This document shows, piece by piece, positions 325 to 30,129 of a stretch of 64,000 nucleotides of DNA. The notes beneath the pieces were generated by a model, which had not been told where the DNA came from, did no database searches, and worked only from the letters and a program-made list of their open reading frames with translations. This stretch comes from Bacteroidota bacterium. Its GTDB lineage: Bacteria; Bacteroidota; Bacteroidia; B-17B0; Aurantibacillaceae. A program made the position numbers and the translations under genes. How positions within the stretch are numbered: position 1 is the first letter of the stretch; each line of letters starts with the position of its first letter. Location: the NCBI GenBank assembly GCA_021156365.1, contig JAJNDK010000010.1, forward strand, positions 62,001 to 126,000, written 5' to 3'.

Positions 325-3300
325 ATGAAAAAATTCTTACTCAGTATCATTCTTGTCGCATTTGGGATTACCATACATGCGCAAACAACTTATGTAAACA
401 TTAATGCAACCGGAGCCAATAACGGTACATCCTGGGCAGATGCTTACACCGATCTACATTCGGCAACCTACAACACTACCTCAGGTGAAATTTGGGTAGC
501 GCAGGGAACTTACAAGCCAAGCCGTAGTTTTACAGGGAACATTCCGGGAAGTAATACACAAAAAACATTTCGTGTTGTAAACAATATAAAAGTTTATGGA
601 GGTTTTATTGGAAGCGAAACTATGCTTTCGCAACGCAATTGGAAAACCAACATAACAATACTTTCAGGCGACTTTGGCGCTGGTTCAAAAAGTTACAATG
701 TTGTTCGATTTGATGCTAATACAAATGCAACAGAATTAGACGGTTTTACAATAGAAGGTGGAAGTGCCACTAGCGCTAATGCCACTGAACAATTAGGAGG
801 TGCAGTTTATATGACTACTAATGCAAGCCCTATCATTCGCAATTGTATATTTAAAAATAACATTGCCCAACAACATGGAGGAGCTATCTATGTTTTAGGT
901 GGTTCACCGGAATTTTTGAACTGTGAGTTCAAAAACAACTCCACGATATTGTTTGATGGTGGAGCACTTTACATTTCCGGCGCAACAAGCACTAATATAG
1001 TAAACTGTTTATTTAATAGTAATATAGCTACGCGCTATGCTGGTTGCGTGCTTATTGCAAATACAACTACTTCATTTGTTACTAATTGTACATTTGTAAA
1101 TAACCAAAGTAGCAATAATTCAGGGAAAACTATTTTTCATTCGGTTACAGCTGGTTCGCCTGTAATGACAGTAAGTAATTGTATCTTTTATGCTAACACA
1201 CCTACAAATGCAGATGAGATATACACCAACGGAGGAAATTACCATGTTAAAAATTGTTTATCACCTGGTTTAGTAACTGACTATATTGCGGCAACTTCAC
1301 AAACAAATAATTTAACTGGTGTTCCATTCTTTACTGATTACATTAATAACGATTTTACTTTGCAGTGTAAATCACCAGCAGTAAATACCGGTAATGCAAC
1401 CGGATTAACTATACCAGGTGTTGACTTAGCAGGTAATCCAAGAACAAATAATACAATTGATATGGGAGCCTACGAGAATAATATTTCGTCAATTGGCATT
1501 GAAGCTAACACAACAAACATTTGTCAAGGTGAAGCCGTTATACTAAGAGGAACATGTGATGCAACAGGTTATACCTGGACAGGTGGAGTAACAAATGGAG
1601 TAGCATTTTATCCAACTTCTACACAAACGTATATTTGCACAGGAATATCAAGTTCTACTATCGATTCTATTACTATTGAGGTTGCAAACATTACAAATGA
1701 ATCATTGACCGGCCCAACAACTGTGTGTTCAGGAAATATCGCAACAATAAGTTTAGCAAATTCATCTACCGGTGCGTCTTACTTTTTACGAGACAATGTA
1801 ACTGATTATATTGTTGATGGTCCTGTTTCAGGAACAGGATCGGCCTTAAATTTCACCACGAATAATCTTACGGCAACAAGTACTTTTAATGTTATTGCAA
1901 GTTCTAATCCTATTGTAAGCACAATTGGAGGTGTTGGTGTTGATTTCGATGGTTCAAATGATAAAATTACTACCAACTACTTTTTTCCAACAACCTCTAA
2001 TTTAAGTCTTGAAGCATGGATTTATCCGGAATCTTCGATATACGGAAGAATACTATCAAATTTTGGCGGAAGTACCGGTACTGCATCCGACATTGTTTTT
2101 GACAACGCCAATGCTTCCCAAAATAATGGCAGAGCACTAAGACTGGTTGTGGGAACATCTGCAACCGCTACTGTTCCAAATGTTTTAACATTAAATGCAT
2201 GGAATCATGTAGCAGCCACATTTAATAGTGGAGTAATTAATTTGTATGTAAATGGAGTTTCCGTTGGAACCTTTACAGTGCCAACAACAACATTGTTAAC
2301 AAATGGATTTCGTTCATTAACCATAGGTGAAGATTACGCTCAAGGTGTAAATCCAGAATATTTTAATGGTAAAATGGATGAAATTAGGATTTGGAACAGG
2401 ACGTTAAGCCAAATGGAAATTGCAGCAAACATGAATGCATGCTTCACTGGCCCACAAAACCAATTAGAAGTTTATTATAAAATGGATGAAGGGTCCGGAA
2501 CTGTTATAAATGATTATAGTGGCAATGGTCGTAATGGCACCTTTATAAATAACACAGCTAATAATCATTGGATTACTTCTGCTCATTCTTGCAATGAAAT
2601 GCTTACAACACCAACTAATACAGGTAAGGCACTGGATTTTGATGGAACAAATGATTTGGTAATGACAACATTTAGAATGCCAGCAACATCTGTATTTACG
2701 GTTGAAGGATGGGTTTTTCCGCGTTCTACAAATTTTGACAGATTATTTTCTAACTATGCTTTTCCACTGAATGGCGCCATTATTATTGATACTTACAATG
2801 CATCTCCCAATAACGGAAGAGGAGTGCGTTTTAACGTGTATGGAACCGGAAACGCACTCTTTTCAGTTAGCGCACCCAATCTGTTAATATTAAATGCATG
2901 GAATCATATTGCGTGCACATTCAACAATGGTGTTATGACTGTTTATGTAAATGGTTTTGAAGTAGCAACTGGAACAGCACCATTCACATCTATTCCTCAA
3001 ATAGGCTCAAGTTTTGTATTTGGTGAAGATTTTGTAACTGGGACAGCTGAACATTTAAATGGTAAATTAGATGAAATTCGTTTTTGGAATAAAGCGTTAA
3101 ATCAAACAGAAATTACAAATAATATGAACAATTGTTTAACAGGAACTGAAACGGATCTCCTGGCATATTACAATTTCGAAAACGGAAGTGGTAGCGTTGT
3201 AAGTGATCTTACTGTTAATCAAAATGATGGTTTAATGCAAAATATGGATGCATTAACAGACTGGGTAGCAGGACAATTTTCCTGTGAAACAAATTGCAGT

Positions 3301-27789: not shown

Positions 27790-27883
27790 TTTTTTGCCGC
27801 AGATTCGCGCAGATTTCGCAGATGCATTTTCATAGCAGATCTATGAACTTTTCTCAGCGCAGCTAAACCTGTAGAATCCGCAT
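27790..27883. repeat. Degenerate copy of an intergenic 'CGCAGATT' repeat element
   Basis: The gap between uvrC and the DAHP synthase gene contains 'CCGCAGATTCGCGCAGATTTCG' in two close CGCAGATT units, then a short hairpin (CATAG/CTATG) and a degraded right arm ending 'GAATCCGCA'. It resembles the better-preserved element at 29226-29315. No ORF. Confidence 0.5.
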
Positions 27884-28930
27884 TTATTTATTTTTTTCTT
27901 CCTTTTTGCTCATCAGTTCCGTTTGCACACGAATGGATTCTTCGTGCAGCAGCAAACATAGTTTCTCAATAAAATCTTTGTTCATTTTTTTATCGATCCC
28001 CGATTGTGTTCTTGACTTCAGGATCTCCATCCACCGCTCCAGCTGGAATACAGAAACATTGTTGTCCTGTTTGTATTCAGCGATCTGCTCAATAATATCG
28101 ATCCGTTTCCGGGTAAGCTGTATCATTTCTTCATCGAGCTCGTCAATGATGTTACGCAGGTGCTGCAATTTGTCATTGAACTTTGCATCGGTTGTTGTTG
28201 TTTTTCTGAATGTAAGCTCGCTGAGCAATTGATGGAGTGCATCGGGAGTAAGCTGCTGCTGTGCATCGCTCAATGCTTTGTCAGGCTGGATATGCGATTC
28301 GATCATCAATCCCTGCATCCCTAAGTCCAGCGCTTTTTGAGCGATCTCTTTCAGAAACATCCGTTTGCCGCCGATATGGCTCGGATCGCAGATCACCGGC
28401 AGGTTTGGGAAAATAGTTTTCAACTCGATCGGGATCTCCCAGAGCGGGTGATTCCGGTAGATCCCTGTATGTCCATCATGAAAGCCACGATGGATCGCGA
28501 TCATTTTGTCAATACCTGCCTGCTGGATACGTTCAATAGCACCAATCCACAATTGCAGGTCGGGATGAACGGGATTTTTGATCATTACAGGAATATCAAC
28601 ACCTTTCAGCACATCGGCTATTTCCTGCACGGAGAAAGGATTTACGGTAGTCCGTGCACCGATCCACAATACATCTACCCCATATTTCAGCGCCAGCTCT
28701 GTATGTTCCTTGTTGGCTACCTCCACGGTGGTAAGAAGACCGTAGGTTTTTTTGACCTCCTGCAGCCATTTTAACCCGGTTTCTCCTACTCCTTCAAAAG
28801 AATTGGGGCGTGTGCGGGGTTTCCAGATACCGGCCCGGAAAATCTTTATCTGGTCGTTTTTTGCAATTCCTTCGGCAGTCTGCATTACCTGTTCGTAGGT
28901 TTCTGCGCCGCAGGGCCCGGCAATAAGCAA
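27884..28930 (-). CDS. Bifunctional 3-deoxy-7-phosphoheptulonate synthase / chorismate mutase (type II)
   Basis: 348 residues from the TTG at 28930. Residues 1-250 are a DAHP synthase: 'LIAGPCGAETYEQ', 'FRAGIWKPRTRPNSFEGVGE', 'WIGARTTVNPFSVQEIA', 'PVMIKNPVHPD', 'CDPSHIGGKR'. Residues about 265-345 are an AroQ chorismate mutase ('LRNIIDELDEEMIQLTRKRIDIIEQIAEYK'). It links the first step of the shikimate pathway to the first step of Phe/Tyr synthesis, a fusion usual in Bacteroidota. The same frame stays open upstream to a stop at 28994-28996 and encodes a family-like N-terminus ('ISAFCNWNPDKNEHL'), but contains no ATG, GTG or TTG there. The true start may be ATC at 28990 or ATA at 28972. Confidence 0.93.
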   Translation of the reverse strand: MLIAGPCGAETYEQVMQTAEGIAKNDQIKIFRAGIWKPRTRPNSFEGVGETGLKWLQEVKKTYGLLTTVEVANKEHTELALKYGVDVLWIGARTTVNPFSVQEIADVLKGVDIPVMIKNPVHPDLQLWIGAIERIQQAGIDKMIAIHRGFHDGHTGIYRNHPLWEIPIELKTIFPNLPVICDPSHIGGKRMFLKEIAQKALDLGMQGLMIESHIQPDKALSDAQQQLTPDALHQLLSELTFRKTTTTDAKFNDKLQHLRNIIDELDEEMIQLTRKRIDIIEQIAEYKQDNNVSVFQLERWMEILKSRTQSGIDKKMNKDFIEKLCLLLHEESIRVQTELMSKKEEKNK

Positions 28931-29053
28931 ATGTTCATTCTTATCGGGATTCCAGTTGCAAAAAGCGGATATGTCGAGTTCCTTTTTGATAGCCTACAAA
29001 TTTACCCTTTTTGAGGTATTGTTGTTGCAAGAAAAGTTAAACAATTTTGTAAG

Positions 29054-29188
29054 GTGAGAAAAACCAAAAATCCCATAGCGATCCAGTGCCCGCTTTCCAT
29101 CTATTTTGCAGACAGCAAGAAAAAGAAGAAATGCTGCAAGGAATTCAAAACCGGCGACCGCTGCAAAAAATGCCCGGGCAGGAAATAA
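29054..29188 (+). CDS. Small Cys/Lys-rich protein (44 residues)
   Basis: GTG start at 29054 and TAA at 29186-29188, preceded by 'AAG'. The product begins 'MRKTKNPIAIQCPLSIYF' and continues with a Lys cluster and 'KKCCKEF', ending 'DRCKKCPGRK'. It has five Cys after residue 11, arranged C-x14-CC-x8-C-x2-C, and about 30% Lys/Arg. The pattern suggests a small zinc- or RNA-binding protein. From memory, similar 'KKKCCKxYKKGxxCKxCP' mini-proteins occur in other Bacteroidota, but I cannot verify this. It lies between the DAHP synthase gene (divergent) and the palindromic repeat before rlmB. An opposing 71-codon ORF covers the same bases and looks like a shadow. Confidence 0.6.
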   Translation: MRKTKNPIAIQCPLSIYFADSKKKKKCCKEFKTGDRCKKCPGRK

Positions 29189-29225
29189 CCTACGAGCCTT
29201 TTCTCCCATACTATTTACATTTGTT

Positions 29226-29315
29226 TTTTAACCGCGGATTTTCGCAGATGACACAGATTCTTTGCGTACTATATTCATAATCCGCGAAATCTGCGTTAAT
29301 CTGCGGCCGGTTTAA
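29226..29315. repeat. Intergenic palindromic repeat of CGCAGATT units
   Basis: An imperfect inverted repeat of about 90 bases. The left arm is 'AACCGCGGATTTTCGCAGAT' and continues 'GACACAGATT'. The right arm, read on the minus strand, begins 'AACCGGCCGCAGATTAACG' and continues 'CAGATTTCGCGGATT'. The arms share the CGCAGATT/CGCGGATT core. Such elements are scattered between genes in many Bacteroidota genomes (general knowledge). It lies between the 44-residue gene and rlmB and could form a long hairpin in RNA. Confidence 0.7.
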
Positions 29316-29361: not shown

Positions 29362-30129
29362 ATGCATCGTAACGACCAGGAGAATAAAGAAGAAAATTGC
29401 ATATACGGCATTCGTGCGGTAATTGAGGCGATCCGTGCGGGCAAAGAACTGGATAAGATCCTGCTGCAGAAGGGCTTATCGAATGACCTTTTCGGGCAGC
29501 TGCGCAAAGAGCTGGTAGGGAAGGAAATCCCTTACCAATTTGTTCCTCCCGAAAAACTACGCCGGATCAGCACTGCCAACCACCAGGGCGTGATCGCTTA
29601 CCTTGCCAATGTTACGTATTACAAAACAGAAGAGCTGCTGCAAACCCTTTTCGAAAAAGGAAAGATACCGTTCGTACTGATCCTCGACAGGATAACGGAT
29701 GTGCGGAATTTCGGAGCAATTGCGCGGAGCGCGGAGTGTGCAGGTGTGGACTTTATTGTAATTCCTTCGAGGGGAGCAGCACAGATCAATGCAGATGCCG
29801 TAAAAACATCTGCAGGTGCTTTACACAGGATACCTGTTTGCAGAGAAGATAACCTTAAGGAAACATTGGAATATTTGAAGGATTCGGGCTTAAAGATCTT
29901 TGCTTGCCATGAAAAGACAGAGAACACCATTTATACTGTTGAATACAATGAACCGCTGGCAGTGATCATGGGCTCGGAAGAGAACGGGATTTCCGGGGAA
30001 TACCTGAAAAGAAGCGATTTGCAGATCAAAATACCAATGGCAGGAAACATATCTTCACTCAACGTTTCGGTTGCCACCGGTATTATTTTGTTCGAAATTT
30101 TAAGAAGCCGCACTGCCTCTGGTTCGTGA
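29362..30129 (+). CDS. rlmB: 23S rRNA (guanosine-2'-O-)-methyltransferase RlmB (TrmH/SpoU family)
   Basis: 255 residues. The N-terminal substrate-binding domain has 'YGIRAVIEAIRAGKELDKILLQ' split across its first helix. The SPOUT methyltransferase domain has motif 1 'DRITDVRNFGAIARSAECAGVD', motif 2 'AVIMGSEENGIS' and motif 3 'IPMAGNISSLNVSVATGI'. These bind SAM in a trefoil knot. It methylates the 2'-OH of G2251 (E. coli numbering) in the P-loop of 23S rRNA; related TrmH3 proteins can have other targets. Its last 30 bases overlap the convergent small membrane-protein gene. Confidence 0.93.
   Translation: MHRNDQENKEENCIYGIRAVIEAIRAGKELDKILLQKGLSNDLFGQLRKELVGKEIPYQFVPPEKLRRISTANHQGVIAYLANVTYYKTEELLQTLFEKGKIPFVLILDRITDVRNFGAIARSAECAGVDFIVIPSRGAAQINADAVKTSAGALHRIPVCREDNLKETLEYLKDSGLKIFACHEKTENTIYTVEYNEPLAVIMGSEENGISGEYLKRSDLQIKIPMAGNISSLNVSVATGIILFEILRSRTASGS

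Follow-up and report, generated by a model that had tools for sequence, protein, structure and literature searches.

Judged by its conservation, a 44-residue frame at positions 29054-29188 (plus strand) of the window, the whole 64,000-nucleotide stretch of Bacteroidota DNA that was analysed, is a real gene under purifying selection. It encodes a small basic Cys4 protein, and the promoter regions compared below make its membership in a Bacteroidota iron-homeostasis regulon well supported. What chiefly places it in iron metabolism is that two different operators, both common to iron genes, are found on this one gene family. Since neither Pfam nor NCBIfam gave a match to the small protein up to an E-value of 1, what emerges is a conserved family of small proteins that has no model in either collection and now gains a testable physiological setting, iron limitation.

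A conserved small basic protein with four invariant cysteines

The frame opens with GTG at 29054, closes with TAA at 29186-29188 after 44 codons and encodes the peptide MRKTKNPIAIQCPLSIYFADSKKKKKCCKEFKTGDRCKKCPGRK. Re-reading of the sequence bore out the first-pass annotation, made from the DNA alone, in its description of a GTG-initiated 44-residue frame with five cysteines, a CC...CxxC arrangement and a lysine cluster: the cysteines stand at residues 12, 27, 28, 37 and 40, and a KKKKK run is present. The product has a pI of 10 and a net charge of +12, with no signal sequence obvious by eye. Across 48 loci the family spans 38-60 aa and a pI of 9.1-10.4, and its median length is 50 aa as against 44 aa in the window. 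The gene lies between an ORF for DAHP synthase/chorismate mutase (27884-28930, minus strand) and rlmB (29362-30129, plus strand). This gap had been called otherwise empty, which holds in that no other likely gene was seen there, but not to the letter, as a mechanical 71-aa ORF (28994-29209) runs antisense to the small gene.

The divergent DAHP synthase/chorismate mutase gene, identified by family matches, is placed at 27884-28990 (minus strand); its 348-aa ORF reaches 28930, and the frame extends to about 28990 without ATG, GTG or TTG in the extension. At 28988-28990 (minus strand), near the expected DAHP synthase N-terminus, there is an ATC codon 6 nt past a perfect -7 box; it might be a rare start codon of a leaderless mRNA. 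In the congener locus L007 (genome G002), the 5' end of the DAHP synthase gene looks like that of the window. A dispersed repeat, CCGCGGATTTTCGCAGAT...ATCTGCG, is present in the window at 29225-29314, where pieces of it match four other sites of the genome, and at about 27796-27880, a copy found by eye.

Relatives of the small protein were sought in 60 genomes, the window's own included, with E-values up to 0.1. Matches initially found in 23 of the 60 genomes were reduced to 22 by curation, which removed G045 (E 0.05, a stop in frame) as well as the additional match of G018 (two stops). The carriers are 19 of the 37 genomes of the window's family and 3 of the 23 outside it, and the top match in another genome, at E 3e-15, is in a congener. 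A profile search of 395 genomes of the phylum (E up to 0.01) returned 24 genomes; four matches (E 0.0057-0.0075) were discarded by sight as unrelated frames, leaving 20 carriers, the window's own genome among them, all within its class. The carriers named among at least 14 loci include Chryseobacterium daecheongense, Pedobacter rhizosphaerae, a Sediminibacterium MAG and a Saprospiraceae MAG. The working set comprised 48 loci, after repeats (L030, L032, L033, L037, L041, L043 and L045) and spurious loci were dropped.

Selection was measured on an 18-codon block around CC-x8-CxxC in 47 loci, L058 being left out as it does not have this spacing. The pooled pairwise pN/pS was 0.18, against 1.96 (with 3 stops) and 1.08 (with 95 stops) for the other two forward frames of the same block. 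In all of these 47 loci the four cysteines of CC-x8-C-x2-C are present, written with both Cys codons, as is one tail lysine, and five further Lys/Arg positions are kept in 42-46 of the 47; only about 20 residues of the protein are conserved. The homologue search that had been proposed as a check was thus run, and it sustained the core claim of an overlooked short Cys/Lys-rich gene, with the cysteine pattern retained and third positions varying. The link to iron goes beyond that first-pass annotation. The view that the frame is non-random likewise stood, given the congener match and the difference in pN/pS between frames. The cysteine pattern itself held for CC...CxxC and needed amending in extent: only residues 27, 28, 37 and 40 make up the conserved set of four, and Cys12 is common, not invariant. 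A metal-binding knuckle would fit these four invariant cysteines. The family profile matched no PDB chain up to E 1, and structure prediction (AlphaFold, 15 sequences) gave a pLDDT of 59 and a pTM of 0.23, too poor to use. Four pieces of the protein motif were absent from the literature searched.

A palindromic operator with rigid promoter geometry

A palindromic operator of the form TACC-N8-GGTA lies at 29003-29018, starting 51 nt before the start codon. The same operator is found upstream of the small gene in 27 of the 48 loci, namely the 19 of the window's family, three from other families (L026, L027 and L050) and five MAG records, and one half is degenerate in three of the 27 (L009, L011 and L050). 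The spacing from operator to start codon is exactly 51 nt in 21 of the 27, or in 22 when L008 is counted from its upstream ATG. In L007 the 5' end of the small gene is altered relative to other loci: ATG AGA TAG stands at the usual 51-nt phase, and the small frame's own ATG follows 87 nt later. The DAHP synthase gene is divergent from the small gene in 17 of the 19 loci of the window's family and in all five further MAG records with the operator; it is missing from L009 and L011, and likewise from L030 and L043, the longer copies of these two. In other families, where 18 loci were read, the neighbours vary; the small gene thus stands alone, and its product probably acts in trans.

The pattern was then counted across whole genomes against a reversed control. 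It gave 7 matches versus 1 in the window's genome; 37 versus 5, with a near-identical pattern, in 12 relatives of the window's family, which had been selected among small-gene carriers; and 9 versus 3 in three genomes of other families, for a total of 53 versus 9 in 16 genomes. These are undercounts, as the strict pattern misses many small-gene operators, finding 7 in the 16 genomes. The 53 matches represent 52 distinct places, L081 and L092 being one promoter. They front the small gene (7), suf (6), aconitase (3), feo (5), HmuY (3), TonB receptors (3), DUF4856/imelysin genes (5), porin-like genes (3) and genes without a clear class (7), and 10 fall in coding sequence. Family searches on representatives confirmed Fe-S_biosyn, FeoB, FeoA, Aconitase, HmuY, TonB Plug, DUF4856 and Imelysin; the remaining members were assigned by eye on sequence similarity, and the porin-like L091 and L122 had no family match. 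In G047, from another family, the five matches front suf, a porin-like gene, imelysin, DUF4856 and the small gene, with 2 matches for the reversed control. A literature search found no paper on DUF4856 together with imelysin, and a search for Bacteroidota iron regulons listed no paper that by its title dealt with one and nothing on the small protein.

The position of the operator relative to the promoter was expressed as a phase: the count starts at the T of TACC and stops where a -7 box (TAnnTTTG, 5/6 or better) ends. In the window the -7 box CAATTTTG (29042-29049, plus strand; 5/6) stops 4 nt short of the start codon, and a possible but weak -33 TTG, read from the sequence, lies 20 nt from it at 29019-29021 (plus strand). 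A phase of 47 nt, first noticed at the small gene and a handful of other loci and counted afterwards, was found in 7 of 7 small-gene loci (0.14 expected from shuffled flanks), 17 of 19 uptake-type loci with the porin-like ones included (0.55 expected) and 5 of 7 loci without a clear class (0.18 expected). The uptake-type exceptions are L070 and L073, the latter at 46. The phase was absent from suf (0 of 6; 0.16 expected), acn (0 of 3; 0.07) and coding sites (0 of 10; 0.19). A 47-nt phase would put the palindrome around -44, an activator position. At all six suf loci the palindrome instead runs into a perfect TAnnTTTG box, a 22-nt geometry that would suit repression. At 5/6 this geometry is less specific: four uptake-type loci also have it on their far side, and one of ten coding sites has it too. 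On the DAHP synthase side of the window, the operator overlaps the -7 box TAAATTTG (28997-29004, minus strand; 6/6 in L006). The 22-nt geometry on that side is perfect in 3 of the 22 loci with DAHP synthase, the window included, and 5/6 or better in 15 of the 22, evidence that is weakened by the operator itself supplying two letters of the box. We infer the signs, activation or repression, from geometry alone.

With hand-chosen start codons, a TAnnTTTG box (5/6 or better) lies at most 14 nt away in 36 of 48 loci and exactly 4 nt away in 27 of 48. As these starts had been picked with the promoter box in mind, the test was rerun with mechanical start rules. Taking the first in-frame ATG, the box lies 2-6 nt before the start in 27 of 45 loci and at exactly 4 nt in 23 of 45, against a shuffle rate of 0.074; taking the last ATG or GTG at least 36 codons from the stop, it was found in 21 of 48 loci against a shuffle rate of 0.07. 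Since a -7 box so near the start implies a leaderless message, this arrangement suggests that the small-gene mRNA is leaderless. For comparison, one figure reported for B. thetaiotaomicron is that only ~3.7% of 5' UTRs are shorter than 10 nt (PMC7366714). A search for leaderless small proteins returned no title on this small protein.

An operator with such rigid promoter geometry across iron genes implies an iron regulator. Two candidates were considered and rejected. The first, Rrf2/IscR, had no match to the Rrf2 family at E 0.001 in the window's genome, whereas 13 of 14 control genomes gave one. The second was an autoregulated Fur or DtxR gene; the genome holds two Fur and two DtxR-type genes, with no good TACC site within ~1.5 kb on either side, the best PWM score near them being 4.7 compared with 24.8-39.2 for the 24 sites from which the PWM was built. 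As a separate observation, an uncharacterised pair of genes for a 130-aa protein and a larger one is preceded by the operator at phase 47 in L074 (G018) and L078 (G003). The 130-aa protein of L074 has no Pfam match, and the pair is a candidate new member of the iron regulon.

Fur-box-like sites in other lineages

Among the 21 loci without the TACC operator, 17 carry a Fur-like box of 14-17 matching letters out of 19 (shuffle p at most 0.017), although 7 of these 17 are not independent, as they carry near-identical Chryseobacterium-type peptides. No such box was found in the 27 TACC loci (lowest p 0.297), and four loci (L057, L058, L061 and L062) have neither operator. The small gene of the window is accordingly without a Fur-like box and has a different iron-gene operator instead, an apparent swap of regulators between families on the same target gene. 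The box in Riemerella, ATTTAGAATTATTCTAAAT, is a prediction, with promoter fragments bound by Fur in EMSA (PMC5609570); in another Riemerella paper the Fur box quoted for this strain has a different sequence (PMC7976709).

A strict 19-bp Fur pattern run on four genomes found one palindromic site in one genome. A looser pattern, a Fur half-site plus promoter, gave 33 matches against 36 for the control in the four genomes and so was not enriched. Thirty of the 33 were examined as loci, of which 10 were intergenic with at least 14/19 box letters, with two more in coding sequence. The 10 intergenic boxes front four small genes, three TonB receptors, one PNPOx-type gene, one sRNA candidate and one gene judged MreB-like by eye; the TonB-receptor boxes come from two of the four genomes and from a source pattern unenriched over control. 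The sRNA candidate, possibly iron-controlled, lies at ~1412-1500 (minus strand) of L133 in G057 and at ~1500-1610 of L156 in G151. A Fur-box-like promoter is followed by ~90 nt free of ORFs and by a GC stem with a T run, and the fold z is -4.3. All three elements, promoter, core and terminator, are found again in G151, the only congener of G057 sampled, and elsewhere among 40 family genomes it gave short-piece matches only.

Proposed role and alternatives

Our preferred, though tentative, reading is by analogy: a small basic protein of an iron regulon may be an Fbp-like iron-sparing effector that binds RNA through its Cys4 tail. FbpA, FbpB and FbpC of B. subtilis are described as small basic Fur-regulated proteins and proposed iron-sparing effectors, and a role as RNA chaperones of the sRNA FsrA has been postulated for them, with RNA binding given there as unconfirmed (PMC8464778). 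The likeness lies in very small size, basic charge and iron control, here read from operators. As to an sRNA partner like FsrA, what was seen is the candidate described above, which comes from a family other than the window's. The two differ in phylum and in the second, non-Fur-like operator of the window's family, and they have no sequence relation, Pfam and NCBIfam being empty, so that on sequence the protein does not belong to the Fbp family. To our knowledge, a Cys4 tail is not known in Fbp proteins.

Under the Fbp-like reading, the small protein would be induced at iron shortage together with uptake genes, and the same type of operator in the window's family would hold down suf and perhaps DAHP synthase. 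Such a layout would amount to iron sparing, with uptake and the small protein up and Fe-S assembly, perhaps also DAHP synthase, down. The protein is predicted to be cytoplasmic; its Lys/Arg-rich Cys4 tail may bind RNA, whether an sRNA, an mRNA or the ribosome, and may hold zinc, iron or a cluster and could sense the iron state. An iron-linked small protein is of note in a phylum with known sRNAs, where Bacteroides is described as having no obvious Hfq or ProQ homologue (PMC7366714). A wider joint reading, which we offer as unlikely when taken whole, would make the protein an iron-state-sensing RNA partner that does, for iron sparing, the work of the Hfq/ProQ missing in Bacteroidota and has an iron-controlled sRNA as its counterpart; would have a second, dual-acting iron regulator replace Fur on the small gene in the window's lineage; and would have that regulator activate uptake and the small protein and cover the suf and DAHP synthase promoters through the same palindrome.

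Nearly as likely as the RNA-binding effector, and itself doubtful, is a role in handling iron or Fe-S, in which the four cysteines would hold iron, a [2Fe-2S] cluster or zinc and the lysines would dock on ferritin or SUF, in the manner of Bfd. The four invariant cysteines, the operator common to suf and feo and the Fur-box-like control in other lineages all agree with this. Bfd is short, has four cysteines and is iron-regulated, and its Cys spacing is other than CC-x8-CxxC. The likeness in length and cysteine number, however, does not extend to the domain: the Bfd-type [2Fe-2S] domain went unmatched in Pfam up to E 1, which argues against such a domain by sequence, about 20 conserved residues would be very short for a cluster protein, and the conserved Lys/Arg of the tail suit nucleic acid. 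The SEC-C motif of the SecA C-terminus, ~20 residues, Lys-rich, with two Cys pairs 8 residues apart in the form CxC-x8-C(C/H), offers another comparison. The small protein differs in its CC-x8-CxxC spacing and in standing alone, not as the tail of a large protein, and Pfam returned no match to this motif either.

Rather improbable is a zinc-knuckle protein that belongs to the ribosome or the translation machinery and is produced when iron or zinc is scarce. Size, charge, Cys4 and the high Lys/Arg content speak for it; against it, no PDB chain was matched by the profile, the distribution is patchy (20 of 395 phylum genomes) and the operators point to iron. Very improbable is a cis-acting leader peptide for the downstream gene, rlmB in the window. 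The short frame does precede rlmB on the same strand, but the downstream gene varies between families and selection acts on amino acids, which rules such a leader out; in the stretches examined from other genomes no rlmB stands beside the small gene, the rlmB matches at L038 and L040 being 28-32% identical and kilobases upstream of it. Finally, a chance ORF in an intergenic spacer, for which the short length, the GTG start and the lysine-rich coding might speak, is ruled out to near certainty by conservation, with homologues in several families that keep all four cysteines at the low pN/pS given above.
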